Origin: Deltaproteobacteria bacterium
Lineage (GTDB): Bacteria > Desulfobacterota > Syntrophia > Syntrophales > Smithellaceae
Assembly (NCBI GenBank): GCA_022703375.1
Contig: JAKLDS010000014.1
Span: 1 to 47,991 of the forward strand
DNA: 47,991 nt
Direction: 5' to 3'
Positions within the stretch are counted from its first letter, which is position 1, and each line of letters opens with the position of its first letter. Position numbers and translations under genes: made by a program. A model generated the notes under the pieces. That model worked only from the letters and a program-made list of their open reading frames with translations. It had not been told where the DNA came from and did no database searches. This document shows positions 3,587 to 47,758 of this stretch, one piece after another.

Positions 3587-3745
3587 TTATCTGGTTATTT
3601 TCGATAACAGAATGAATATGCCGATAAATAACACGGCCAGGATAACAATAAATAAAACACCGTATTGGTGTACCTCGGTTAAACTGTTGTACCAGGCCAT
3701 AATATTGTCCCAGTGTTCAATTAAAATAGCTTTTACATTTTCCAT
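3587..3745 (-). CDS. 52-residue single-span membrane protein
   Basis: The start is placed at the ATG at 3745 because GGGGGTG lies about 9 nt upstream. A longer reading frame back to 3853 would run into the phosphofructokinase gene and has no ribosome binding site. The protein has an N-terminal amphipathic part (MENVKAILIEHWDNIMAWY) and one strongly hydrophobic helix at residues 29-47, ending in a short basic tail (SKITR), so probably N-out or peripheral with a cytoplasmic C-terminus. The family is unknown. It follows the phosphofructokinase gene by 59 nt and may share its transcript. Confidence 0.55.
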   Translation of the reverse strand: MENVKAILIEHWDNIMAWYNSLTEVHQYGVLFIVILAVLFIGIFILLSKITR

Positions 3746-3804
3746 TACAAAAACACCCCCACTGGATGCATTATGTTTTAAAAACAAGATAAAGTCAAAG
3801 GCTG

Positions 3805-5109
3805 TTATTTCATTGTCTGAGGTTGACCCGTACTTTCCAAAACCCGCAGCCACAGATTGCCCTTTGGATCAATGCGGCGGCGGGTCGCTGCAGCGCTGAT
3901 CGGCAAATGCACATATTCATCCTTCATCAGTGCGACGAGGAGGCCTGTTTTACCGGCCATGCCGGCATGAACGGCATATTGCCCCAGAGAACTGCAGTAA
4001 ATGCTGTCGGAAGCATTGGCCGGAACGGAACGAATCATGTAACTTGGTTCAATATACTTTAAGTTTATTTCCAGTTCATTTTTCCGGAAATGGTTCTCAA
4101 TTTCATTTTTAAGAAATATTCCTATGTCATGCAGTCGGATATTTCCGGAGGGGTCGGTTTCCGAATGCTCATCGGCTGTTCTGAGATATTCCTGGCCGGC
4201 GCCTTCGGCAACCAGGATAACGGCATGGCCGCGCAATTTGATACGTTGCTGCAGCACTGATAAAAAGCCATTTTTACCGGCAAGGGCAAAGGGCGCTTCA
4301 GGAATAAGCACAAAGTTAACGTCATTTTGGGCCAGCGCCGCGCTGGCGGCGATATGGCCGGAAAGCCTGCCCATGATTTTTATCAGTCCGATGCCGTTGA
4401 AAGCGCCTTTGGCTTCTACATGAGCGCAGCGAATTGCTTTAACTGTCTCCGAGATGGCCGTATCAAAACCAAATGATTTTTCAATCAAATTAAGATCGTT
4501 ATCAATTGTTTTCGGAATTCCGACAATGGCTATTTTGAGATTCTGCCGGGCAATTTCCTGAGTCAGCTGAGCTGCGGCGCGCATGGTGCCATCGCCGCCA
4601 ACACAAAAAAGAATATTGATATTTAAGTTTTCCAGCGCTGCCGCCAGCCGGGGAATTTCCTGATGGCCGCGCGAACAGGAAAGAATACTGCCGCCGATAC
4701 TGGTAATGTCTTTTACGATATCGGGACTAAGCTGCACCGGTTTATGGGCGTAATCCGGATTTAAACCGCGAAATCCGTATTTAATGCCAATAATATTTTT
4801 AACGCCGTAACGGAAGTAGAGCCCCATGGTTATCGAGCGAATGACGTCATTGATTCCCGGGCATAATCCGCCGCAGGTAACAATGGCCGCTTTTGTTTTG
4901 GCGGGATCAAAAAAAATATTTTCACGCGGACCTGCCAGTTCCACGGAAAGAGGAATTTCCTGACTGTCCCGACAGGAATTGTATCCGTCCAGGGTGGAGT
5001 CGAATAATATTCTTTTGCTGTCTTCGACATAACCGGATATGCCGGGCGGAGAGTGAATACATCTTTTGCCCAAATCTGTTATTGATAAATCGAAACAATT
5101 TTCTTTCAT
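3805..5109 (-). CDS. pfkA: 6-phosphofructokinase, long ATP-type (TP0108/plant-like group)
   Basis: A 434-residue enzyme that phosphorylates fructose 6-phosphate to fructose 1,6-bisphosphate. Motifs: CGGLCPGIND (79-88), the donor-site GGDGT (171-175) and PKTIDND (199-205, base D203), then a GRLSGHIAASAAL substrate loop. Gly174 marks ATP use, since PPi enzymes carry Asp there. Lys200 is the residue of PPi enzymes. This Gly/Lys combination is typical of the long ATP-PFKs of spirochaetes, trypanosomes and plants. The N-terminal ~70 residues are an extension relative to E. coli PfkA. It starts 3 nt after the FAD oxidoreductase stop codon, so the two are co-transcribed. Donor preference is inferred from the two residues only. 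Confidence 0.9.
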   Translation of the reverse strand: MKENCFDLSITDLGKRCIHSPPGISGYVEDSKRILFDSTLDGYNSCRDSQEIPLSVELAGPRENIFFDPAKTKAAIVTCGGLCPGINDVIRSITMGLYFRYGVKNIIGIKYGFRGLNPDYAHKPVQLSPDIVKDITSIGGSILSCSRGHQEIPRLAAALENLNINILFCVGGDGTMRAAAQLTQEIARQNLKIAIVGIPKTIDNDLNLIEKSFGFDTAISETVKAIRCAHVEAKGAFNGIGLIKIMGRLSGHIAASAALAQNDVNFVLIPEAPFALAGKNGFLSVLQQRIKLRGHAVILVAEGAGQEYLRTADEHSETDPSGNIRLHDIGIFLKNEIENHFRKNELEINLKYIEPSYMIRSVPANASDSIYCSSLGQYAVHAGMAGKTGLLVALMKDEYVHLPISAAATRRRIDPKGNLWLRVLESTGQPQTMK

Positions 5110-5112
5110 GTG

Positions 5113-6558
5113 CTATTTAGCCTTGCCGATGACGCAGGATGCGGCATTCATGCCGGAAATGATTTCCCCTTCAAATCCGTTATCCCCGAACAATGAGGCT
5201 CCGCTGAGATAGACATTTTTATATCTTGTTTTGTTATTGGCAGCGGAAAATCCGGTAATAAACGAACTTTTCAACTGATATTTCGGGCTGACCACTTCTT
5301 TTTGTTTTCTGGATAGGGCAATTGATTTTTCAATATCCAGCATTTCAATGTTTTCCTTCAGAAAGGGGAGAAAGAACTCCAGGTTATCCTGAATTGATAA
5401 AGCCGTTGCCTGCAGACTTTCTTCCGACCATGACTCAGTATCAGCGGGCAGAAATACAGTGGCGGTCAGGGCAATCTTGTCTTTGGGCGCCAGGGCTTCA
5501 TCTTCCGGCATACTGGCTGCCAGAATAATCATATTGTTGTCATGGATATTTTTATTCTCATTACAAATTACCGCAACATGGCGGGACATTTTTTCCGGCA
5601 GGCATTTTTCCGGTATTCCCAGGTGAATGGTAAAGGGCAGATATTTAATTTTCGCGGGCCGCAGCCAGTCGGAAATGCTGATAAATTTTTTTTCTCCTTT
5701 AAACACAAGATTGAATGCTTCCGATTTATTGCTGATAATTAAATTCTTTGCCGGCATGGCGGCCAGTGTTCCGTCTTCCCGAAGCACTTCCACTTTAGCA
5801 ATCCGGTCATTATTAATGTTCTTGATATCGCTATCAGTCAGATAAGTCCCGCCGGTATTAAGAAAGCTCTTCAGTATCGCTTTGTAAAAAACCTGTATGC
5901 CACCCTGAAAATAATAAACGCCGCGCAGAGGAGCGGCAAACAAATAAAAGGAAGAGAACGCGTTAAGTTGATTTTCCAGACAGGAAAGCATGGCAAGTTG
6001 TGCTTCAAAAACTCTATGCAGGGAAGTGTTTCGGGCAAGGAATTTTTTCAGTTTTCCGGTAATCAGTTTCTGCTTAAAATAATAGGGCAGCAGTTTTAAA
6101 TAATGATAGGCATCCTTGAATGAAGAAGGCTGGACAAAGGGATGCGACCGAAACCAATGTTCGAAAAGCGGAGTGTATTTATAAACGGCTGAATAAATAT
6201 TGTATATTTCATTTTCATCTTCCGGGAATTCTCTGACCAGTTCGGCGACAAGAGGTTCAATCTCATTGAAAATATCTATTCTGTGACGGGGAAGAATAAC
6301 CTGAAAGGCGGGATTTAAAAGAAGGCAGTTTCTTTCCAAAACGGGAATATCGAGCTCGGCCAGGAGAGCAAGACAGGTTTGATTAACTCCGAAACCGGTT
6401 GCGGGTAAAGGATCGAGGTTAAAGGTGAAGCCGCCGATTCGGCATGATCCGCAGTAATCATTGCCGGCAATTAACGCCGTATTCACGCCATAACGCTGAG
6501 CCATTGCGGCCGCTACATAAGAAGATAAATCTTCGCCAATGACAATCAAATCGTGCAT
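5113..6558 (-). CDS. FAD/NAD(P)-binding oxidoreductase, phytoene-desaturase-like, degenerate Rossmann motif
   Basis: A 481-residue protein with the architecture of the phytoene desaturase/carotenoid isomerase-like amine oxidase superfamily: an N-terminal beta strand HDLIVIG, a central segment with YYFQGGIQVFYKAIL (as in the substrate part of CrtI-like proteins), and a C-terminal NVYLSGASLFGDNGFEGEI followed by SGMNAA (FAD-contacting helix). The usual GxGxxG reads GEDLSS here, so its second and third glycines are lost, which could weaken FAD binding. The start at 6558 is chosen because GAGGTG is 8 nt upstream; the alternative at 6576 has no such site. It sits directly between purN and pfkA. 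The substrate is unknown; no carotenoid genes are nearby. Confidence 0.72.
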   Translation of the reverse strand: MHDLIVIGEDLSSYVAAAMAQRYGVNTALIAGNDYCGSCRIGGFTFNLDPLPATGFGVNQTCLALLAELDIPVLERNCLLLNPAFQVILPRHRIDIFNEIEPLVAELVREFPEDENEIYNIYSAVYKYTPLFEHWFRSHPFVQPSSFKDAYHYLKLLPYYFKQKLITGKLKKFLARNTSLHRVFEAQLAMLSCLENQLNAFSSFYLFAAPLRGVYYFQGGIQVFYKAILKSFLNTGGTYLTDSDIKNINNDRIAKVEVLREDGTLAAMPAKNLIISNKSEAFNLVFKGEKKFISISDWLRPAKIKYLPFTIHLGIPEKCLPEKMSRHVAVICNENKNIHDNNMIILAASMPEDEALAPKDKIALTATVFLPADTESWSEESLQATALSIQDNLEFFLPFLKENIEMLDIEKSIALSRKQKEVVSPKYQLKSSFITGFSAANNKTRYKNVYLSGASLFGDNGFEGEIISGMNAASCVIGKAK

Positions 6559-6565
6559 TATCATT

Positions 6566-7186
6566 TCACCTCGCATCTTTAATGCGGACTTTGCGCCCCT
6601 GAATATCTATTCTTCCCTCGGCATAATATTTAATGGCCAGCGGATATATGCGATGTTCTTCCTGCAGGATGCGAGCGGCCAGCGTATCTTCGGTGTCATC
6701 GTCATGAACGGGAACAACGCTTTGAATAATAATCGGGCCGGAATCAATGCCCTCATCAATAAAATGAACCGTACAGCCGGAAAACTTGACACCATAATCA
6801 AGAGCCTTCTTCTGGGCATGGATTCCCGGAAAGGAAGGCAGCAGGGCGGGGTGGATATTCACAATTCTCTGCGGGAAAGCATTGAGAAAAACCGGTGTCA
6901 GCAGTCGCATGAAGCCAGCCAGCACAACCAGTTCAACATTACTGGTTTTTAAAATCCTGATAAGTTCCTGATCGAACTCCTCCCTGTTTTGAAAATTATC
7001 GTGTTCCAGAATATTCCAGGGGAGGCCATGTTTTTTCGCGCGTGTTATAGCATAGGCATCCGGTCTGTTGCTGATGACAGCTTTTATTTCAGCGGGCAGA
7101 GATTTGTTTTCTATATTATCAATAATGGATTGGAGGTTGGAACCACTGCCGGAAACCAGCACCCCGATATTCAATAAATCAGCCAT
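6566..7186 (-). CDS. purN: Phosphoribosylglycinamide formyltransferase
   Basis: A 206-residue cytosolic enzyme of de novo purine synthesis that transfers a formyl group from 10-formyl-THF to GAR. It shows the phosphate-binding VSGSGSNLQ near the N-terminus, FMRLLTPVFL, the catalytic NIHPALLPSFPG (Asn and His of the active site) and HFIDEGIDSGPII with the catalytic Asp. Length is normal for the family (E. coli 212). The ATG at 7186 is preferred over an in-frame TTG at 7195, since the conserved region begins MADLLNIGVLVSGSG. It starts 9 nt after the purM stop, so purM-purN is one unit. A downstream FAD oxidoreductase begins 7 nt after its stop. Confidence 0.95.
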   Translation of the reverse strand: MADLLNIGVLVSGSGSNLQSIIDNIENKSLPAEIKAVISNRPDAYAITRAKKHGLPWNILEHDNFQNREEFDQELIRILKTSNVELVVLAGFMRLLTPVFLNAFPQRIVNIHPALLPSFPGIHAQKKALDYGVKFSGCTVHFIDEGIDSGPIIIQSVVPVHDDDTEDTLAARILQEEHRIYPLAIKYYAEGRIDIQGRKVRIKDAR

Positions 7187-7195
7187 AATCCGCAA

Positions 7196-8245
7196 TCAAT
7201 TATCCGAGAAACTGACCAATTCCTGATTTTTATTTCTTTTTTCCACTACACCCAGCAGATAAGGTTTTTCGCCAAGCACTTCGAGCCTTTCCATAACTTC
7301 CCGGCATTCTTTTTCTTCAACTACAATAATCATTCCGATACCCATATTGAAAACGCGGAACATTTCTTTTTCTTCCACATTGCCGATTTCCTGAATGATA
7401 TTAAATATCGGGGGAATATCCCAACTGTTCCTGGTTATGACGCAGCGGCAGACATCAGGAATTACACGCGGGATATTATCATAAAAACCACCGCCGGTGA
7501 CATGGACGAGTCCTTTTATATGAAAGCTCTTAAAAAGGTTCAGCAAAGGCTTCACATAGATGCGCGTCGGTTTCAGCAGCTCAAGCCCGACAGTCTCATC
7601 AAGTCCGGCTATCCTGTCCGTAACATGAAGTTTTCCCTTGTCCAGCAGAACTTTTCTGGCCAGAGAAAATCCATTGCTGTGGAGACCCGAAGAGGCCAGA
7701 CCGATAATATGATCATGCACGCGGACAGAAGATCCATCAATCAGCTTGTCAGCCTCCACAAAACCGACACAAAAGCCGGCCAGATCATATTCACCTTCGC
7801 GGTAGAAACCCGGCATCTCAGCTGTTTCACCGCCGATTAAAGTACAGCCCGCCTGTTTGCAACCCTGGACAATTCCGTTAATGATATTGACGCTTTTTTC
7901 CATCTCGATTCTTCCCGTTGCCAGATAATCAAGGAAAAATAACGGCTCCGCTCCCTGCACGACGACATCATTGACGGACATGGCTACGAGATCAATGCCG
8001 ATGGTATCGTGCTTATCAACCAGTTGGGCAACTTTTAGTTTGGTACCGACGCCATCCGTCGAGGAAACGAGAATCGGATTCTTCAGTTTAGCCGAATCGA
8101 AACGAAACAAACCGCCGAAGCCGCCAATACCGGAAACAACTTCCTTGCGGGCAGTGGTTTTAATCAACGGCTTAATTCGTTCGATAAAACTATTGGCATT
8201 ATCAATATTGACGCCTGCGTCTTTGTAGGTAGCTCTTTTTTTCAT
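7196..8245 (-). CDS. purM: Phosphoribosylformylglycinamidine cyclo-ligase (AIR synthetase)
   Basis: A 349-residue enzyme that closes FGAM to AIR with ATP in purine synthesis. The family motifs are present: STDGVGTKLKVAQ, DLVAMSVNDVVVQGAEPLFFLDY, GCTLIGGETAEMPGFY and the C-terminal THVTGGG-like GLVHVTGGGFYDNIPRV. The start is set at 8245 (MKKRATYKDAGV), where TGGAGATT lies just upstream and the length matches the usual ~345. The frame stays open to 8371 but that part is unlike PurM. The gene is divergent from recG; the 176-nt gap between them holds a direct repeat of AACTTAA (8302-8322) but no strong promoter on either strand. Confidence 0.95.
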   Translation of the reverse strand: MKKRATYKDAGVNIDNANSFIERIKPLIKTTARKEVVSGIGGFGGLFRFDSAKLKNPILVSSTDGVGTKLKVAQLVDKHDTIGIDLVAMSVNDVVVQGAEPLFFLDYLATGRIEMEKSVNIINGIVQGCKQAGCTLIGGETAEMPGFYREGEYDLAGFCVGFVEADKLIDGSSVRVHDHIIGLASSGLHSNGFSLARKVLLDKGKLHVTDRIAGLDETVGLELLKPTRIYVKPLLNLFKSFHIKGLVHVTGGGFYDNIPRVIPDVCRCVITRNSWDIPPIFNIIQEIGNVEEKEMFRVFNMGIGMIIVVEEKECREVMERLEVLGEKPYLLGVVEKRNKNQELVSFSDN

Positions 8246-8421
8246 ATAATCTCCATCTATTAAGATTAAATAATTTAGAATAAAATTATGGCTGCTGATG
8301 TAACTTAAATCGGAACTTAAGTCAATCACTGCTTGCTTAAACAGGATATATTTGTTAACAGAATACACCAATTTATTTGAAATAATTGCATTTGTTCATT
8401 TCAACCCGGACGGTTAAGTCA

Positions 8422-10890
8422 ATGGAAACTTTGCAGGCGATTATTAAAAAGATTGAACAGCCGCTCCAATTCGCTTCCCGGGATAGTTCCAAAAATTTAG
8501 CGCAGATAAAAAATCTGGGCAAATCACTGCTCAATCTTCTGGCGATGCTTAAAAGCTCATTGCCGCAGCTGAGTGAAAACGACGCTTCCGTCATTACCGA
8601 TAATTTAACACAGGTATTTTCTGATTTCGACCGGCAAAAACTTGAACTGAGAAAAAACAAACTGGCAGAGGCGCTGCCTCTTCTCGAGAAACTCAAAATT
8701 TCTATTGCGGCAATTCCGGCAACCGGCGAATCTCTCAAGATACATGATGAACAAACCCTGCTGAGGATAAGCGACATAAAAGAGGCTTTGGCGAAACTGA
8801 GTCTGCCAGTACAGTATTTAAAAGGTGTAGGGCCAAAGATGGCTTTGCGTTTTGCCGCAAAAAAAATCATGAGCGTCGAAGACATGATTTATTTCCTTCC
8901 CCGTGCCTATGAGGACAGAAGAGAGATAAAGAAAATAAACCGGCTGGAAGCGGATAAAAAACAAACGATTATGGGAATTGTCGTGAGCGCAGAATATAAA
9001 TATTACGGCCGCAGACGTATTCTGGAAGTTGCTGTAAGCGACAATACGGCAATTATCACGGCCAAATGGTTTAAAGGCCGCATGTCCTATCTGACAGGAA
9101 TCTTTAAAAAAGGAACGAAAGTAATTTTTACCGGCAATGTTACCTCAAATTATCTCCAGAAAATAATGATTCATCCTGATTATGAAATAATGGATGAAAA
9201 TGACAGCGATAATCTGCTCAATTTCAGAAGAATTGTACCTGTTTATTCGGAAACAGAAGGGCTGCATCAGAAATACATTCGCAAAATAGCATTTCACGCG
9301 CTGGAAAATTATGCCCGTTATGTGGTATCACCGCTGCCGGCTGATATCTGTCGGAAACGCCTGTTGCCAGGCATTCACGAGGCATTGCTTTCCGTCCATT
9401 TCCCGGAAAATGATAAAAATCCGGATGAATATAACAGCATTCGTTCTGAGGCGCATCGCCGCCTCATTTATGATGAATTTTTCTTTTTTCAGCTCGGTAT
9501 GGCCGTGAAAAAGACCGGACGCATTCTGGACAGAGGCATTGCTTTTTCGATTGGTAAAAACAGCCTGTTATCTCAATATTATAAGCTGTTACCTTTTACA
9601 TTAACAATTGCGCAAAAAAGAGTTATCGCGGAAATTCAGAATGATATGGCTAAGACTACCGCCATGAATCGCCTTTTGCAGGGTGATGTGGGCAGCGGAA
9701 AAACAATAGTCGCCATGTCAGCCATGGTTACAGCCTGTAACAATGGTTATCAGGCCGCGCTGATGGCACCTACGGAAATCCTCGCCAAGCAACATTACCG
9801 CAATATCAGCGGCTGGGCTCAGGCGATCGGCCTGAAGGCGGTTTTGCTGACCGGCGCCATGAACACGGCAGAAAAAAAAGAAACCCTCAATCTAATCAAC
9901 ACCGGAAATGCTGATATAATAATCGGCACACACGCTCTGATTCAGGAAGATGTTAATTTTCACAAGCTCGGTTTTGTCGTTGTGGACGAACAGCACCGTT
10001 TTGGTGTCCTGCAAAGAGCTGTCCTGCGTAATAAGGGGATTAACGCCGATGTCCTGGTGATGACGGCAACGCCTATTCCCCGCACCCTGTCCTTGACCGT
10101 TTACGGAGATCTGGATGTTTCTGTTATTGACGAAATGCCCCCGGGTAAATTGCCGGTGAGCACCCTGGTAATGGCTGAAAACAGACGCGATAAGGTTTAT
10201 CAGATGATTGCCGCTGAACTTGAAAAGGGAAATCAGGCTTTCATAGTTTATCCGCTGGTCGAACAATCGGAAACTCTGGATTTGAAGGATGCCACCAATA
10301 TGGCTGAACATCTGCAAAATGATGTTTTCCCTGATTACAAGCTGGGTTTGATTCACGGCAGGATGAAGGATAAGGAAAAAGAATCAGTCATGAATGATTT
10401 TCAGGAAAATAAAATTAATATTCTTGTTGCCACAACGGTAATTGAAGTGGGAATAGACATACCGCGGGCGTCACTGATGGTTATCGAGCATGCCGAGCGT
10501 TTTGGCCTTTCACAGTTGCATCAACTGCGGGGAAGGGTAGGAAGACGCGAAATTCCTTCCACCTGTATTTTACTTGCTGATTATGCCCGTTCGGATATCT
10601 CGCGCCGCCGGTTAAAAGTAATGGAAAAAACCGGCGACGGTTTTTTACTGGCCGAAGAAGATCTTGCCATTCGCGGCCCGGGTGATTTTCTGGGCACAAG
10701 GCAATCAGGCCTGCCGGATTTTCGTATTGCCAGTATCATCCGCGATGCCCGCATCCTGAACGAAGCCAGAGAAGACGCTTTCAGTCTGGTTGCTGCTGAC
10801 CCTCTACTGGAAAGACCTGAACATCTGCTGCTGCGTGAAACACTTATCTGGAAATGGCAGGGCAAACTCGATCTGGCAAGAATTGGATAA
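8422..10890 (+). CDS. recG: ATP-dependent DNA helicase RecG, long N-terminal form
   Basis: An 822-residue branched-DNA helicase that reverses stalled forks and processes Holliday junctions. Residues 1-130 are a helical, charged extension absent from E. coli RecG (693 aa) but usual in deltaproteobacterial versions. The conserved wedge region starts at LKGVGPK (133-139). Helicase motifs follow: Walker A GDVGSGKT, motif II DEQH (the RecG form of DEAD), TATPIPRTL, and GRVGR. The ATG at 8422 is used; an in-frame TTG at 8386 lacks any ribosome binding site and adds 12 non-conserved residues, though neither start has a good site. High confidence on identity, moderate on the start. Confidence 0.95.
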   Translation: METLQAIIKKIEQPLQFASRDSSKNLAQIKNLGKSLLNLLAMLKSSLPQLSENDASVITDNLTQVFSDFDRQKLELRKNKLAEALPLLEKLKISIAAIPATGESLKIHDEQTLLRISDIKEALAKLSLPVQYLKGVGPKMALRFAAKKIMSVEDMIYFLPRAYEDRREIKKINRLEADKKQTIMGIVVSAEYKYYGRRRILEVAVSDNTAIITAKWFKGRMSYLTGIFKKGTKVIFTGNVTSNYLQKIMIHPDYEIMDENDSDNLLNFRRIVPVYSETEGLHQKYIRKIAFHALENYARYVVSPLPADICRKRLLPGIHEALLSVHFPENDKNPDEYNSIRSEAHRRLIYDEFFFFQLGMAVKKTGRILDRGIAFSIGKNSLLSQYYKLLPFTLTIAQKRVIAEIQNDMAKTTAMNRLLQGDVGSGKTIVAMSAMVTACNNGYQAALMAPTEILAKQHYRNISGWAQAIGLKAVLLTGAMNTAEKKETLNLINTGNADIIIGTHALIQEDVNFHKLGFVVVDEQHRFGVLQRAVLRNKGINADVLVMTATPIPRTLSLTVYGDLDVSVIDEMPPGKLPVSTLVMAENRRDKVYQMIAAELEKGNQAFIVYPLVEQSETLDLKDATNMAEHLQNDVFPDYKLGLIHGRMKDKEKESVMNDFQENKINILVATTVIEVGIDIPRASLMVIEHAERFGLSQLHQLRGRVGRREIPSTCILLADYARSDISRRRLKVMEKTGDGFLLAEEDLAIRGPGDFLGTRQSGLPDFRIASIIRDARILNEAREDAFSLVAADPLLERPEHLLLRETLIWKWQGKLDLARIG

Positions 10891-10931
10891 AGTAATTATG
10901 CAAAGGGAAGAAGATAATCATCCTGTTAATT

Positions 10932-11306
10932 TCACTTACCCAGACAACCGGATTTTCCGCTGCCGCGTCCGGCGGTCTCCTCCTTGATAAGTTTATCTTT
11001 GGCAAAAGTCAAAGCATAAATAAAATCACCTTCGCCGCAATTATAACGCCAGACTTCCTTTTTGCGGACACACTTCTTTTTTGTTTTAATGCGGCCGGTT
11101 TTATCGCGTTGAGCAGTATATTCCTGATTATTTTCACAGACTGTCTCCCTGAAAGCCGGTTTTCCGCAGGCGGCAAGCACCTGAGCTTTGGTATCACCGG
11201 TTGTGACCATTTCTGAACCGCAGCGGAATGCCCGGACTTCGTCCGCTGAAATAATTGTGTAAATCAATATTGAAGATATAAACAACAAAGACATGGTCTT
11301 TTTCAT
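10932..11306 (-). CDS. Secreted DUF2845 protein
   Basis: A 124-residue protein with a signal peptide (MKKTMSLLFISSILIYTIISA) and the DUF2845 pattern: FRCGSEMVTTGDTKAQVLAACGKP, then a W-Y-N-C-G stretch and FIYALTF. Six Cys residues, of which several could form periplasmic disulfides. The function of this family is unknown. Its ribosome binding site AAGGAGGA lies inside the last codons of the upstream methyltransferase gene, so the two are translationally linked. The gene is convergent with recG; nothing else is seen in the 41 nt between them. Confidence 0.82.
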   Translation of the reverse strand: MKKTMSLLFISSILIYTIISADEVRAFRCGSEMVTTGDTKAQVLAACGKPAFRETVCENNQEYTAQRDKTGRIKTKKKCVRKKEVWRYNCGEGDFIYALTFAKDKLIKEETAGRGSGKSGCLGK

Positions 11307-40986: not shown

Positions 40987-42399
40987 TTATTCTTCAGGAT
41001 TGATCATTACAGCACCGGGCAGGGGATTATCGAATTCCTTAATATTTCCGAGAATAAGGACAGTGTTGCCCTCTTTATTCAGATACCTTGCGGCGGCTTT
41101 TTTTAATTCCTCTTCTCCTACATTATTTATCCTGTCGCAATATGAAGTCAGATAATCGGCAGGCAGATTATCATATTCCATTTTCATCTGCTGCCAGGCG
41201 ATATCCCTTGTCGAAAGAAAAGAAAAGATAAAGCCATTGTTGATAGATTTCCTGGCCCAGGCGATTTCTTCTTTTTTAACTGAATTGGCTTTAACGTCAT
41301 CTATTATCGAATTAATCAGAGACAGTGCTTTGCCTGTGGTCTGGTTTTTTGTAAAGGCGTAAGCCCCGAAAAGGCCGTAATCCGGGCGCGAGCGGTAAAA
41401 GCTGCCGGCACTGTAAGCAAGCCCTTCATTATTGCGCACGGCGGAAAAGATACGCGAGGAAAAGCCGCCGCTGCCGATAATAAAATCAAGGATGGTAAAT
41501 GCGTAGTAATCCTTATCTTTTTTGGCGGGAGCGAAGGAGCCGATGATAATAGTGGATTGCGGTATTTCTTTGTCAATGCAGAAGATGCCGCCCTGCCTGT
41601 TCTGCGGCGGAGGGACAATTTTCCTGGTGTCCGATTTTTTCCAGTTCCCGAAATATCGGGAAATTAAACGCGAGGCGCTCTCAACTGTAATATCCCCTGT
41701 TACCACCATCATGATATTATCCGGAGAAAAATACGTCTTGTGAAAAAGGAGCAAGTCTTCTCTTTCGATCCTACCGATTGACTTGACAGTTGAATATCGT
41801 CCCCGCTCGTTATCTCCATAAATGAGGCGGTTAAATTCCCGAAATGAATAACGCTGCGGATTATCCTTCAGCCGGCGCAATCCTTCCTTGGTTAATTCTT
41901 TGGCCAGAGTGAATTTGGCATCTTCAAAAGCGGGATTTATCAGCATTTGCGACAAAAGATTAATGCCCGTTTCCATGTTTTCCTTTAAGACGGAAAAAGA
42001 AACATCCGCTGATTCCAGGTATATGCTTATGTCCGGGGCGGAACCCAGAAAATCAAAACTGCTGTCCATTTGCGAGCTGGAAATATTGCCGGCTCCTCCC
42101 GTTTTCATCACCTGTGCCGTTAGTTCCGCCGTGCCTTCTTTGCCTGGCGGGTCATACATGGAACCTGTTCTGATGATGGCGTTGATGTTAACGATCGGTA
42201 ATTCCCTATCTTCCAAAATGTAGAGAATTATTCCATTATCCAGAACCAGCCGCCTGGCCTGCGGCAGCTGTATTTGCAGCGGCTGGTAGGAAAGATTATC
42301 GGGAGAAGGCAGGCTGCCTGTTTCCGCATTTGCGGAGAAAGCCGTCACCAGGGATAAAATTACCATTATCAGTAAATATTTTTTCATAATTATCTTCAT
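40987..42399 (-). CDS. M16-family protein lacking the zinc-binding motif (non-catalytic partner)
   Basis: A 470-residue M16 fold with a signal peptide (hydrophobic 7-22, cleavage near ANA). At the site of the HxxEH motif, in PPGKEGTAELTAQVMKTGG, the residues read E92-L-T-A95-Q96, so all three ligands are lost. The rest of the fold is intact (GDITVESASRLISRYFGNW, PQSTIIIGS). This is the subunit type that pairs with an active M16 partner, as in mitochondrial processing peptidase and bacterial PqqF-like pairs. The active partner is directly upstream at 42410. It should sit in the periplasm. Confidence 0.85.
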   Translation of the reverse strand: MKIIMKKYLLIMVILSLVTAFSANAETGSLPSPDNLSYQPLQIQLPQARRLVLDNGIILYILEDRELPIVNINAIIRTGSMYDPPGKEGTAELTAQVMKTGGAGNISSSQMDSSFDFLGSAPDISIYLESADVSFSVLKENMETGINLLSQMLINPAFEDAKFTLAKELTKEGLRRLKDNPQRYSFREFNRLIYGDNERGRYSTVKSIGRIEREDLLLFHKTYFSPDNIMMVVTGDITVESASRLISRYFGNWKKSDTRKIVPPPQNRQGGIFCIDKEIPQSTIIIGSFAPAKKDKDYYAFTILDFIIGSGGFSSRIFSAVRNNEGLAYSAGSFYRSRPDYGLFGAYAFTKNQTTGKALSLINSIIDDVKANSVKKEEIAWARKSINNGFIFSFLSTRDIAWQQMKMEYDNLPADYLTSYCDRINNVGEEELKKAAARYLNKEGNTVLILGNIKEFDNPLPGAVMINPEE

Positions 42400-42409
42400 T
42401 ATCTTCCGG

Positions 42410-43927
42410 TTATTTTTTCTTTCGCGTCAATGTAGCGATTGTCATATTTTCTCTGGTGAAGTATTTTTTGACGGCATTTTGAATATCAGCCGGCGTTATT
42501 TTATCAATGGTTGAGAGATAACGGGAGAAGTAATTAAAATCTCCCAGCAGAACTTCATAATAAGACAGGATGGACGCCATTTCGGAATTGGAATCAAAGC
42601 CGCTGATGAAATCCATCTTCATCCGGTTTTTGGCTTTGGCCAGTTCCACATCGGTAACCGGCGCGCTTTTAAGTTTTTCAATCTCCTGCCAGATTATTGC
42701 TTCGATCTTTTCATTGGTGTAAGGCTGGCGCGGTCTGGCAAAAAAAGCGAAAAGATTCGGATAAAGAGTTCCCGGCGTGCCGTTGGCCGTGCTGATACTC
42801 TGGGCGACCTGCATCTCATTAATCAGCAAATTATAAAGGCGCGAGGAACGGCCTTTGGTCAGAATATTTTCCAGCACATCGAGGACATAATCATCAAAGG
42901 CCGGAGCGGTCGGTTTATGAAAGCCGATAATCATCAAGGGATTGGCATCAAATTCAACATTGACTCTTCTTAATTCCGTTTGCGGCGGTTCCGGAGCGAT
43001 TAATGTTCTCTCCGCTTGCACCGGAGGTATATCGCCGAAATATTTTTCAATTAATTTCAATGTTTTTTCGGGATTGATGCTGCCGACAACGGCGATGACG
43101 GTCGTCTGCGGCGATTTATATTTTTGAAAATACTTATTCATGGCGGCAATGTCCAGCCTCGCAATGTCCTCCTGCCAGCCGATAACGGGGCGGCGATAGG
43201 GATGAGACTGAAAAGCCGTCGCCAGAAATTGTTCATATAATTTGCCGGAAGGGTCTGCTTCAATGCGTTGGCGTCTTTCTTCCAGAACGACATCGCGTTC
43301 GGTATAAAATTCACGGAAAACAGGATTCATCATTCTATCCGCTTCGATTCTCGCCCAGAGCTCGATTTTGTTGGCAGGGAGGCTGACCTGATAAGTTGTC
43401 ACATCCTGGCCGGTGGAAGCATTCATGTCGAGGCCGCCGTTTTCCGTATAGAGCCGGTCAATTTCATTGGGAATTACATATTTTTTGTGTTCTTCCTGGA
43501 GTATTTTCAGGCGGACGGTAAACTCTTTGATTTTCGTCTGATTCGCTTTTTTGCCTTTCTGCTTTTCCTTATCCAGCGCCCGGCCTGTTTTATCAACCTT
43601 ATCCAATATTTTCTTTTCGGCGGCGAAGTCTTTTGTACCTATCGTTTTTGTTCCCTTGAACATCATATGTTCCAGCAGATGAGCGGCTCCGGTCTGGCCA
43701 TCTGTCTCATCCACGGCGCCCACGCGATGACGGATATAAAGGGAGACCGTCGGGCTGATATGGCGCTCCAGCATCAGGACAGTCAATCCGTTTTTTAATT
43801 TTACCCTGATTACTTTCTGCTCCAGGTCAAGCGCCTGAGCTTCCGCAGTCGGAAAAACAACCAGCAGGAAGACGCCCAGCAGAAAAGCGGTGATGGCAAC
43901 GCAGAAGTTACTTTGTTTATTGAACAT
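42410..43927 (-). CDS. M16-family zinc peptidase, active subunit
   Basis: A 505-residue periplasmic protease. The signal peptide ends near AEAQA (about residue 30). The zinc motif HLLEH is at 83-87 (H83, E86, H87), with the downstream Glu in the ELWARIEADRM stretch. It ends with a long helical region and lies 10 nt upstream of the inactive partner gene. Likely substrate is envelope peptides or mis-targeted proteins. The start has AGGGAC upstream and overlaps the end of the 75-residue membrane-protein gene by 11 nt. Confidence 0.92.
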   Translation of the reverse strand: MFNKQSNFCVAITAFLLGVFLLVVFPTAEAQALDLEQKVIRVKLKNGLTVLMLERHISPTVSLYIRHRVGAVDETDGQTGAAHLLEHMMFKGTKTIGTKDFAAEKKILDKVDKTGRALDKEKQKGKKANQTKIKEFTVRLKILQEEHKKYVIPNEIDRLYTENGGLDMNASTGQDVTTYQVSLPANKIELWARIEADRMMNPVFREFYTERDVVLEERRQRIEADPSGKLYEQFLATAFQSHPYRRPVIGWQEDIARLDIAAMNKYFQKYKSPQTTVIAVVGSINPEKTLKLIEKYFGDIPPVQAERTLIAPEPPQTELRRVNVEFDANPLMIIGFHKPTAPAFDDYVLDVLENILTKGRSSRLYNLLINEMQVAQSISTANGTPGTLYPNLFAFFARPRQPYTNEKIEAIIWQEIEKLKSAPVTDVELAKAKNRMKMDFISGFDSNSEMASILSYYEVLLGDFNYFSRYLSTIDKITPADIQNAVKKYFTRENMTIATLTRKKK

Positions 43928-44144
43928 CGCTTTTGTCCCTTTTTATTCCGATTATCTGAAAATAAACATAGATAAGTCCGACAATGCAAACCATTATCAC
44001 TAAAGAAGCTGAAAAAAAATACATGACAAATTCCAGCGGATTATTCAAATTATAGGAGTTAATCATGATAGTTACGCCTTTAAGCAAAAAAAACAATGCC
44101 AGAAGTAAAATCACGATATTTTTTACCCAGAATATTGCAGGCAC
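43917..44144 (-). CDS. 75-residue membrane protein
   Basis: Two hydrophobic helices at about 8-28 and 39-62, short basic tail (GIKRDKSDVQ), so both ends probably in the cytoplasm. The family is not recognised. It lies 24 nt after the radical SAM stop and overlaps the M16 gene start by 11 nt, consistent with one operon and coupled translation. It may help the peptidase pair or be an assembly factor; that is guesswork. Confidence 0.65.
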   Translation of the reverse strand: MPAIFWVKNIVILLLALFFLLKGVTIMINSYNLNNPLEFVMYFFSASLVIMVCIVGLIYVYFQIIGIKRDKSDVQ

Positions 44145-44168
44145 AATAATAAAATCTCCCCGATTAGT

Positions 44169-45518
44169 TCAATAATATAAATTTCTTATAGCTGCTTTAA
44201 ATTTATTGTATACGGCCAGGGTAAAATCATCATTGCGGCAGGGCAGCAATGAGTTGTTATGATACAGGGGTTCGTTGCAAATGTCAAAGGGTGATAAAGC
44301 GACCGCCTCCTCCCACATCTTTGTGCCCGGAATCGGTGAATATTCGGCAAGAACAGGGCGGGCGCCGCATTCCAGCACAAAATTGATGCTGTCTTCAACT
44401 TCCCGGGCCTTCTGTCCGGGCAGGCCGCAAAGCAGATAAATGCCGATATCCGCAGTTGCATAACCAGCCTGTTTAAGATATTTAACGGCGGAGCGCAGTT
44501 CTTCATTTTTCACTTTGCCGCCTGTTTCCGTCTGCTTTTTAAAATCGGATGTTTCAAATCCGAAGCGGATTGTCTGAAAACCGGCCGAGAAAAGTAGTTT
44601 GCTGATTTCTTCATTGATTTCACGCAGGTGCAAACCGTTCGGGCAATGGAAATGGCAGGAAAGATTTCGTTTTTTTACTTCCTGCAGAATCGGAATAATC
44701 ATTTTTTCCGGATTGACCAGGAGAGCGTCATCATAAAAAGTGAAATTTTTGACGCCGAAATTGCGCCGCCAGTATTCAATTTCATCGGCTACCCGCAGGG
44801 GGTTGCGTGTGCTGAATTTATCGTTGAAGATGTGTGATGAACAGTAGCTGCAATTATAGGGGCAGCCGCGGGAGGTTGTAATTGTCACCTGCTCCAGTTT
44901 CCGGACTAAATCCAAAGCCGGGTAGGGCAGGGAATCGAGATTTCCATAATCGGGTTCAAATAATGTTTCCTCGCCAAACAGATTATGCATTAACTGCAGA
45001 ATCTGTTTTTCTCCGGCGCCGGCTATGATGTAATCAGCGCCGGAATGCCGCACGGCATGTTCAGCGCACAAAGTTGCATATTTGCCGCCCAGCACAATAG
45101 GAACACCCGGCAGGGTCTCTCTGATAATTTTTATGGCGTCAGTAACTCCCTGATACCAGTAAGTCATCATTGATGTGATTAAGACAAGCTCCGCGTCCTG
45201 ATGAAGCTCCAGTTCACGCTTAAAGATATCCGGTCTTATTCCGTAACGGCAATATTTTTTGGGAATAGATTTCAGGCAGTCCGGTTTGGCGATGACGTCC
45301 CGGTGGAATTTGCCGGCGCCGGAAGACAAGCGGCGGGGCAGCAGGCCTGCGTCCAACATTGCCGGATGGTAGGGGTCAAGGCAATCAATATAATGGATTT
45401 GATGATTATTGCGGCGCAGGAGCGCCCCCAGATACAAAAGCCCCAACGGCTGCAGCCAGAAATCGTACGCCGCAAAATCATAAATCCAGGGGTTAACCAA
45501 AAGAATATTTTTGCTCAT
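44169..45518 (-). CDS. B12-binding-domain radical SAM protein
   Basis: A 449-residue protein with an N-terminal cobalamin-binding-like domain (LLVNPW, QPLGLLYLGALL, and LVLITSMMTYW; about 1-190) and a radical SAM domain with the 4Fe-4S motif CPYNCSYC (C-x3-C-x2-C). The typical downstream GFETSD and GLPGQ motifs are also present. Such B12-dependent radical SAM enzymes carry out methylations or ring changes, often on lipids, hopanoids or natural products. The substrate is unknown. It is divergent from the BAHD acyltransferase gene with 74 nt between them. Confidence 0.88.
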   Translation of the reverse strand: MSKNILLVNPWIYDFAAYDFWLQPLGLLYLGALLRRNNHQIHYIDCLDPYHPAMLDAGLLPRRLSSGAGKFHRDVIAKPDCLKSIPKKYCRYGIRPDIFKRELELHQDAELVLITSMMTYWYQGVTDAIKIIRETLPGVPIVLGGKYATLCAEHAVRHSGADYIIAGAGEKQILQLMHNLFGEETLFEPDYGNLDSLPYPALDLVRKLEQVTITTSRGCPYNCSYCSSHIFNDKFSTRNPLRVADEIEYWRRNFGVKNFTFYDDALLVNPEKMIIPILQEVKKRNLSCHFHCPNGLHLREINEEISKLLFSAGFQTIRFGFETSDFKKQTETGGKVKNEELRSAVKYLKQAGYATADIGIYLLCGLPGQKAREVEDSINFVLECGARPVLAEYSPIPGTKMWEEAVALSPFDICNEPLYHNNSLLPCRNDDFTLAVYNKFKAAIRNLYY

Positions 45519-45592
45519 CGCTGTGTGCTTACCATACAGGATGCTTATTTACAAAAGCATTGTTAATTGCTAACATGCCTGCCGGAGAAAAT

Positions 45593-46795
45593 ATGGATGA
45601 TAATTTAAATGCGCCGTTGCCGCTTTTGCCGATTGATTATGTCTTTACCGGGGAGAATTCCTATCAGGTAGAGTTTGTCTTTGTCTATAATTACCGGATA
45701 GATGCCAACAGATTAAAAGATGCTCTGGATAAAGTGTTGGTTTACTTTTACCCATTGCTAAGCAAACTTAAAAAAAACCCGTCGGATGATTTAACGATTA
45801 CGCCTGCCAATGATGGTTTTGTCTATGAAGTTTTCGAATCAACAGAAAAAACGTTTTCCGCCGATCCCCATATTTATCTGAATACAGTAGTTTCAATGGA
45901 AAATGAACCGCTGGGGAAACTCAGGCTGACGCAGACTCCCACAGGATCCGTTTTAGGAATCAGCATCGCTCACTTCGTTGCCGACGGATTCAGCACTTTT
46001 TATTTTTTAGGCGAATTAGCCAAAGCATATCAAAAAAAATCAATAACTCCCCCGGAAATAAAGAGAAGCTGGTTCACTTCTCAAAGAGTCCAAAGCAAAG
46101 AAAAGATAACCGCGGAAGATATTGTCCGCCAGACGGGTTTTTCCGGACCTTTTCCGAGGAAAGAAGTTTCCCGCGACAGGATAGTGTGGGAAAATATAAC
46201 CGTGTCCAACGATAAAATTCAGCAGATACTGAATGATGCACAAAAAGAGTCTGCCGCACGTTTAACTAAAAATGATGTTCTTTCGGCCTATCTCGCGAAA
46301 ACTTATCTGACCAGATGGCAAAACAATGAACCGCTGGATAAAGCTTATATTACATCTCCCTTCGATATTCGCCGTTTTTCTGATTTGGTTTCCGGTAACT
46401 ATTTCGGCAATGGGATTTGCCTGATGACAGTGGAAATAGAATATGATTGGTTTTTAAAAGCCAGTATCAGCCGGTTGGCGCAAAAAATTAGGGCTTCAAT
46501 AAATAATATCAATAAAGAATATGTCATAAATTCTTATAATGTTCTGGAGCAATATCGTCACCAGGAAGGCTTACTGAAGATGCAGCAACTTCACGTTGCC
46601 CATCCCTATGCCGGTATTCTGGCCACAAATCTCTCCCGTGTTCCGCTGGAGCTTTGCGATTTCGGGCAGGGAAAACCCACCCGCTTTATGGCGCTGACCC
46701 CTTCGCCCAGAGGAGCAATCATGCTTCCCGGACAAAATGGAATTAAAGTGGATGTTTGCTTTCCCTTTTTCAGCAACACCGATAAAATGACTTGA
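45593..46795 (+). CDS. BAHD-family acyltransferase
   Basis: A 400-residue protein with the plant and fungal BAHD signatures: catalytic H127-x3-D131-G132 (HFVADG) between two chloramphenicol-acetyltransferase-like folds, YFGN at 270-273, and DFGQG at 356-360 followed by KP, the family's DFGWG box. It opens LPLLPIDY, as BAHD enzymes do, and ends with LPGQNGIKVDV, as in the conserved strand there. BAHD enzymes transfer acyl groups from CoA to alcohols or amines. The start at 45593 has GGAG 5 nt upstream; longer frames to 45560 lack a site. Wax-ester synthases and condensation domains share HxxxD but not DFGxGKP. The acceptor is unknown; the divergent radical SAM gene is a neighbour. No sign of unusual base composition by eye. 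Confidence 0.82.
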   Translation: MDDNLNAPLPLLPIDYVFTGENSYQVEFVFVYNYRIDANRLKDALDKVLVYFYPLLSKLKKNPSDDLTITPANDGFVYEVFESTEKTFSADPHIYLNTVVSMENEPLGKLRLTQTPTGSVLGISIAHFVADGFSTFYFLGELAKAYQKKSITPPEIKRSWFTSQRVQSKEKITAEDIVRQTGFSGPFPRKEVSRDRIVWENITVSNDKIQQILNDAQKESAARLTKNDVLSAYLAKTYLTRWQNNEPLDKAYITSPFDIRRFSDLVSGNYFGNGICLMTVEIEYDWFLKASISRLAQKIRASINNINKEYVINSYNVLEQYRHQEGLLKMQQLHVAHPYAGILATNLSRVPLELCDFGQGKPTRFMALTPSPRGAIMLPGQNGIKVDVCFPFFSNTDKMT

Positions 46796-46846
46796 ACGCC
46801 GGGAAATTTATTGCTACCATGCCGCAAATTTCATCCTGGAGCAACA

Positions 46847-47296
46847 ATGCGCGCGGTTATTCAGAGAATTAGCAGAGCCTGTATTCAAATTGGCAATCAG
46901 GAATATTCATCAGTTAATGAAGGACTGCTCGTTCTACTGGGAGTAGAAAAGGGCGACACAATAGCCGATGCTGTTTATATCCTTGATAAGACTGTCCAAT
47001 TGCGCATCTTTGAAGATGAACAGGGCAAAATGAATAAATCCTTGCTGGATATTGACGGTGAAATGATGGTTGTTTCTCAGTTTACTCTTTTGGGAGACTG
47101 CACCAAAGGAAGGCGTCCTTCCTTCATTAACGCGGAAGAGCCGGCGCAGGCCAATAATTTATACGAATATTTCGTCAAGGAAGCGGCCAAAAAAGTAAAG
47201 AAACTGCAAACCGGGAAATTTCAGGAAATGATGCAGGTGGAACTCATCAACAACGGTCCCGTTACACTATTGCTGGACAGCAGGAAAAGTTGCTGA
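46847..47296 (+). CDS. dtd: D-aminoacyl-tRNA deacylase
   Basis: A 149-residue enzyme that removes D-amino acids (such as D-tyrosine) and glycine wrongly attached to tRNA. Conserved SQFTLLGDCTKGRRPSF and NNGPVTLL (the Gly-cisPro motif) are present, and MRAVIQRISRACI is the usual start. The ATG at 46847 has GGAG 5 nt upstream and gives the standard length. It follows the BAHD gene by 51 nt and precedes a DUF1285 gene by 9 nt. Confidence 0.96.
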   Translation: MRAVIQRISRACIQIGNQEYSSVNEGLLVLLGVEKGDTIADAVYILDKTVQLRIFEDEQGKMNKSLLDIDGEMMVVSQFTLLGDCTKGRRPSFINAEEPAQANNLYEYFVKEAAKKVKKLQTGKFQEMMQVELINNGPVTLLLDSRKSC

Positions 47297-47305
47297 ATAG
47301 AATTA

Positions 47306-47758
47306 ATGGATAATGGCTGCGATATAAAAATTGACAAAGAGGGCATCTGGTATTACCGCGGCGCGGAAATGTTCCGCAAAGAAATATTAAGCCTGTTCTT
47401 TCAAAATGTTAAAAAGGATGATAACGGTAAATATCTCATCGAAATGGGCGAAGAGAAATGCTATCTTGATGTGGAAGATACAGTTTTTGTTGTTACTGAG
47501 GTTCATAAAACAAAAAAGCCGGCAGATAACAGCGATTGTTTATACGTTTTATTGAATGATGATTGCCGGGAAGAGCTTGCTTTAAGCACATTGAAAGTGG
47601 GCAAAGACAACGTTCTTTACTGTCAGGTAAAAGAAGGCCGGTTCGCCGCTCGTTTTTTGCGGAAAAGTTATTACCAGTTATCCGAATTTATTGAAGAGGA
47701 AGAAAACAGATTTTTTATTCGCCAAAGCGGGGAAAAATATTACATTAAAAATAATTAA
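47306..47758 (+). CDS. DUF1285 protein
   Basis: A 150-residue cytoplasmic protein with the DUF1285 pattern: IDKEGIWYYRGAEMFRKEI, then LSLFFQNVKKDDNGKYLIEMGEEKCYLDVEDTVFVV, matching DGxWxYxGxxIxRxxLVxLFaxxLxxexdGxYxLxTPxEk. No enzyme motif. The family is a conserved unknown; its link to dtd is by adjacency. The start has no strong ribosome binding site, so translation may be coupled to dtd. Confidence 0.75.
   Translation: MDNGCDIKIDKEGIWYYRGAEMFRKEILSLFFQNVKKDDNGKYLIEMGEEKCYLDVEDTVFVVTEVHKTKKPADNSDCLYVLLNDDCREELALSTLKVGKDNVLYCQVKEGRFAARFLRKSYYQLSEFIEEEENRFFIRQSGEKYYIKNN

Follow-up and report, generated by a model that had tools for sequence, protein, structure and literature searches.

A BAHD-family acyltransferase gene in a bacterium of the Smithellaceae, lying in a variable gap flanked by two conserved gene blocks

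Work on BAHD enzymes has centred almost entirely on plants and fungi. A search of titles and abstracts in the open literature, with subscription journals outside its scope, returned no characterised bacterial member. The closest solved relatives of the protein described here are plant hydroxycinnamoyl transferases (HCTs; phmmer, 1.1e-9). A histidine-based mechanism is established for BAHD enzymes, and their DFGWG motif varies in plants, where DFGFG, DFGWA, DFGWK and a W-to-G exchange are found (PMC10585174). In HCTs, an arginine handle binds the carboxylate of the acceptor (PMC6203249).

The bacterial gene lies in the window, i.e. the whole stretch of 47,991 nucleotides that was analysed (contig JAKLDS010000014.1), together with the following features:

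44169..45518, minus strand: divergent neighbour encoding a radical SAM protein with a B12-binding domain (PF02310 and PF04055)
45593..46795, plus strand: BAHD/PF02458-family acyltransferase gene (profile match, HCT fold, intact frame)
45971..45988, plus strand: HFVADG, residues 127-132, the HxxxDG active-site motif (motif scan; aligned with HxxxDG of plant HCTs)
46400..46411, plus strand: YFGN, residues 270-273 (motif scan, alignment)
46658..46678, plus strand: DFGQGKP, residues 356-362, of the DFGWG type with W replaced by Q (motif scan, alignment)
46847..47296, plus strand: co-directional dtd, D-aminoacyl-tRNA deacylase (PF02580, 8.4e-56; TIGR00256)
47306..47758, plus strand: DUF1285 protein, conserved partner of dtd (PF06938, synteny)

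The acyltransferase frame starts at ATG 45593, which is preceded by GGAG as a plausible ribosome-binding site (in GCCGGAGAAAATATG), or alternatively at TTG 45560, and ends with the TGA stop at 46795. Counted from the ATG, it encodes 400 amino acids without an internal stop, and it is the sole PF02458 gene in its genome (2.57 Mb, 95% complete). Codon use and G+C (0.422) lie within the spread shown by the other genes of the window, so that neither a recent foreign insertion nor a binning error is indicated by composition.

By every test run, the encoded protein is a member of the BAHD family, as the first-pass annotation had proposed from the letters alone, and the assignment is well supported, with profile, phmmer and superposition scores far above chance level. 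PF02458 is its best Pfam match (8.5e-26, 91 bits against a cut-off of 22.7) and spans residues 24-388, corresponding to profile positions 36-417 of 434. The condensation profile PF00668 reaches 23.3 bits, which is under its cut-off of 30.6. Among the NCBIfam models nothing comes near a cut-off, with the PapA-type NF006790 scoring 16 bits against 716, and no PapA or wax-ester synthase (WS/DGAT) profile of Pfam matches at E values up to 1. The profile outcome that the annotation had named as refuting its assignment, a best match to WS/DGAT, PapA or a condensation domain with no PF02458 hit, did not arise. Identity to any characterised enzyme amounts to only about 20-25%.

HxxxDG, YFGN and DFGxG follow each other in BAHD order and spacing and occupy exactly the residues at which the annotation had placed them. 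DFGQG (356-360) aligns with DFGWG of the HCTs, with glutamine in place of tryptophan. Among the bacterial homologues examined, DFGxG occurs in the window protein alone. YFGN is common to the window protein, plant BAHDs and a bacterial clade of HCT-like proteins from other Desulfobacterota (f93/f54), while Smithella paralogues mostly show YIGN. The LPLLPIDY block, likewise picked out at first pass, is present and aligns with an LPLS..E/D block of the bacterial relatives. The HCT arginine handle falls into a gapped, badly aligned stretch, in which it stands opposite lysine (phmmer) or histidine (MAFFT) of the window protein.

A two-domain, chloramphenicol-acetyltransferase (CAT)-like BAHD fold is predicted by an AlphaFold2 model built on a 35-row alignment of bacterial homologues (pLDDT 80, pTM 0.82), which replaced a first model from 10 sequences that was too poor (pLDDT 61). 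The model was compared by the order of secondary structure elements and by whole-chain superposition. All of the best 50 Foldseek rows are BAHD-fold proteins. In VIA-align, plant HCTs, with which a comparison had been suggested at first pass, superpose best, with Z 33-34 over 368-381 residues (5kjv, 5kjt, 4g0b, 6dd2), the Coleus enzyme reaching Z 34.2 (3.2 A, 375 residues). The BAHD-fold lyase EPS1 gives Z 33.9, agmatine and spermidine transferases about 32-33, vinorine synthase 29.3 and the fungal TRI101 28-29, whereas PapA5 (24.7) and condensation domains of nonribosomal peptide synthetases (NRPS; about 23) score lower.

Hence, the gene very probably encodes an acyl-CoA-dependent O- or N-acyltransferase of the two-domain BAHD type. 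CoA use, catalysis and the general kind of both substrates we infer from the family to which profile, fold and motifs assign the protein. By analogy, the channel between the two CAT-like domains would admit acyl-CoA along with an acceptor, either an alcohol or an amine, and His127 of HFVADG, the presumed general base, may deprotonate this acceptor there. The deprotonated acceptor would then attack the thioester carbonyl, and collapse of the tetrahedral intermediate would afford an ester or amide together with CoA. Asp131 and the DFGQG loop are expected to play structural roles, judging from what is known of the family (PMC10585174).

Two other readings of the protein have to be weighed against such a transferase. 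It could be a relative of condensation domains, PapA or WS/DGAT whose likeness to BAHD enzymes goes no further than HxxxDG and a common CAT-like fold. The PF00668 score below cut-off and weak NRPS and PapA matches would fit, as would the fact that PapA5 and condensation domains have the same fold (Z 23-25). Yet PF02458 surpasses PF00668 by 68 bits, DFGxG and YFGN are present, the Z values to HCTs are higher by about ten units, and no NRPS, PKS or carrier genes adjoin the acyltransferase gene. Condensation, PapA and WS/DGAT identities were rejected on profile scores and structural superposition; this reading is largely refuted and hardly credible. Alternatively, the protein might be a catalytically dead or non-transferase member, such as a lyase or a scaffold. 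Exceptions of this kind exist among the structural matches, namely the EPS1 lyase (6wao/6wcs) and CER2/GL2, and the glutamine in place of the DFGWG tryptophan also counts against an active transferase. Loss of catalysis or another activity is possible since identity to characterised enzymes is so low. However, His127, Asp131, Gly132 and DFGxG are intact, which makes an inactive or repurposed protein quite improbable.

PF02458 genes are rare and patchy in these bacteria: 7 of the 51 genomes from the window's family have them, as do 7 of 155 from the order and 6 of 395 sampled over the phylum (5 of these 6 over the cut-off). Within the family, all but the window's own genome belong to a single genus (g2); relatives in this family bear the record names Smithella sp. 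and Syntrophaceae bacterium. No close homologue of the window protein was found in genome contigs (single-sequence search), plasmids or viral contigs, and an alignment-based scan added no type of relative beyond those already seen in the phylum. The g2 genomes (G019, G025, G029, G061, G063 and G064; L003-L042) harbor up to nine divergent PF02458 paralogues each, several of them in tandem, for example at positions 3630-11104 of locus L120. A few of these have a broken HxxxDG, and together they amount to a bacterial expansion of the family. In Syntrophaceae bacterium UBA6255 (L117, 6464-10638), two paralogues are directly followed by a UDP-glycosyltransferase gene (PF00201); the window's own genome gave no match to such a GT1-type partner.

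Downstream, the stop codon of the acyltransferase gene lies 51 bp from the start of dtd, and read-through or a transcript shared with the co-directional dtd and DUF1285 genes is possible. Upstream, positions 40987-45518 hold the B12-radical SAM gene, a gene for a 75-residue membrane protein (43917-44144) and two M16-like peptidase genes. The order of radical SAM, membrane protein and first M16 gene is kept across the family, and the second block that recurs in family genomes is dtd-DUF1285-guaB (guaB named by eye from the start of its sequence). Of 50 family genomes, 46 have the radical SAM gene (63-75% identity), in most cases without a BAHD gene. No gene separates the two blocks in G017, G034, G024, G009 and G004, where they stand opposite one another. 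At this place, G003, G008 and G005 have a type II/IV secretion ATPase-like gene (profile match run on the G003 copy), and G030 and G014 a CoA-transferase and other genes (profile match run on the G030 copy). The interval (45519-46846 of the window; L098-L108) thus is a variable slot, empty in some genomes and occupied by unrelated genes in others, and the BAHD gene is an isolated, accessory and lineage-specific insertion in it. Since the slot is variable, the neighbours tell nothing of BAHD function, and the substrate cannot be read from them.

This bears on the suggestion, made at first pass, that the acyltransferase, lying beside a B12-radical SAM enzyme, may modify a lipid or small molecule, and on the reading that the two enzymes serve a common pathway in which such a compound is acylated. 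The two start codons are 74 bp apart in divergent orientation, and a shared regulatory region is possible. Against a common pathway stand the distributions (46 of 50 genomes against 7 of 51 for PF02458), the lack of the pair in any other genome inspected, the direct adjacency of radical SAM and dtd genes in relatives, as well as the membrane protein and M16 peptidases as the constant partners of the radical SAM gene. The linkage was rejected on synteny, and a joint pathway appears very unlikely. As to descent, the same annotation left the choice between an ancient bacterial branch and a transfer. A tree was calculated from 37 sequences, in which plants are represented by five HCT-like sequences from printed alignments and fungi by none. 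In it, plants fall together with f93/f54 (98/92), and g2 makes up a single clade (100/100). The window protein stands alone on an end branch 2.06 long, which the best tree puts with g2 (98/92); this placement may be suspect, as long branches attract each other. In topology tests, grouping of the window protein with plants was not rejected (p-AU 0.315), and grouping with f93/f54 was borderline (p-AU 0.048). With only five HCT-like plant sequences, no fungal ones and a long branch that cannot be placed, this tree would seem to decide neither for bacterial descent nor for transfer. Acquisition from a plant or fungus is compatible with the former test and favoured by DFGxG, kept by the window protein and missing from the other bacterial homologues examined. 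It is opposed by the low identity to eukaryotic enzymes (about 20-25%), by the long lone branch without nesting in the plant clade, and by the ordinary codon use and G+C; we consider it unlikely, and any such transfer would be old. Conceivably, though still on the doubtful side, the window protein represents a separate, undescribed BAHD branch in syntrophic Desulfobacterota that kept DFGxG and acylates a metabolite which plants and fungi do not make, which, together with the HCT-like clade, would suggest that BAHD diversification began in bacteria.

Taken together, the window protein is a fresh BAHD member from a little-sampled lineage, of interest mainly due to the lack of characterised bacterial BAHDs in the open literature searched. 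This case alone settles neither origin nor function. Bacterial members supported by sequence, fold and motifs are candidates for the family's origin, and perhaps include an anaerobe's enzyme with unfamiliar acceptor chemistry.

Among known systems, PapA5 and the NRPS condensation domains share the CAT-like two-domain fold and HxxxDG with the window protein, but only at the lower Z values given above, with PF00668 below cut-off and without a DFGxG signature. The fungal trichothecene 3-O-acetyltransferase TRI101 has the BAHD fold, yet it is 13-14% identical and scores lower than plant HCTs. The g2 paralogues come from the same taxonomic family, match PF02458 and retain HxxxDG in most copies. In contrast to the single-copy window gene, they are multi-copy (2-9 per genome), mostly carry YIGN, lack DFGxG and are 18-23% identical to the window protein.

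The HCT-like proteins of other Desulfobacterota (L043-L046, f93/f54) are likewise bacterial PF02458 members with YFGN (23-25% identity) and a similar NLSR(L/V)P-like (SNLSRLP-like) block ahead of the C-terminal motif. They differ in higher PF02458 scores (113-148 bits), in showing FDG or FNG at the position of the plant DFG, and in their grouping with plant HCTs; one matches Arabidopsis HCT at 1.8e-29. At two such loci (L112, 421-3006; L113, 465-4520), the next gene downstream of the HCT-like one is alike in both. Its L112 copy matches profiles of sulfotransferases, and L113 has a divergent EryCIII-like glycosyltransferase gene on the other side. These loci possibly are clusters for the modification of small molecules or glycolipids. 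Finally, the plant HCTs (5kjv, 5kjt, 4g0b, 6dd2) differ by an identity of about 20%, a greater length, DFGWG instead of DFGQG and an arginine handle without clear counterpart in the window protein, as the two alignments disagree, and no phenylpropanoid pathway is expected in the window organism. Yet PF02458, HxxxDG, YFGN, DFGxG and the overall fold are common to both.
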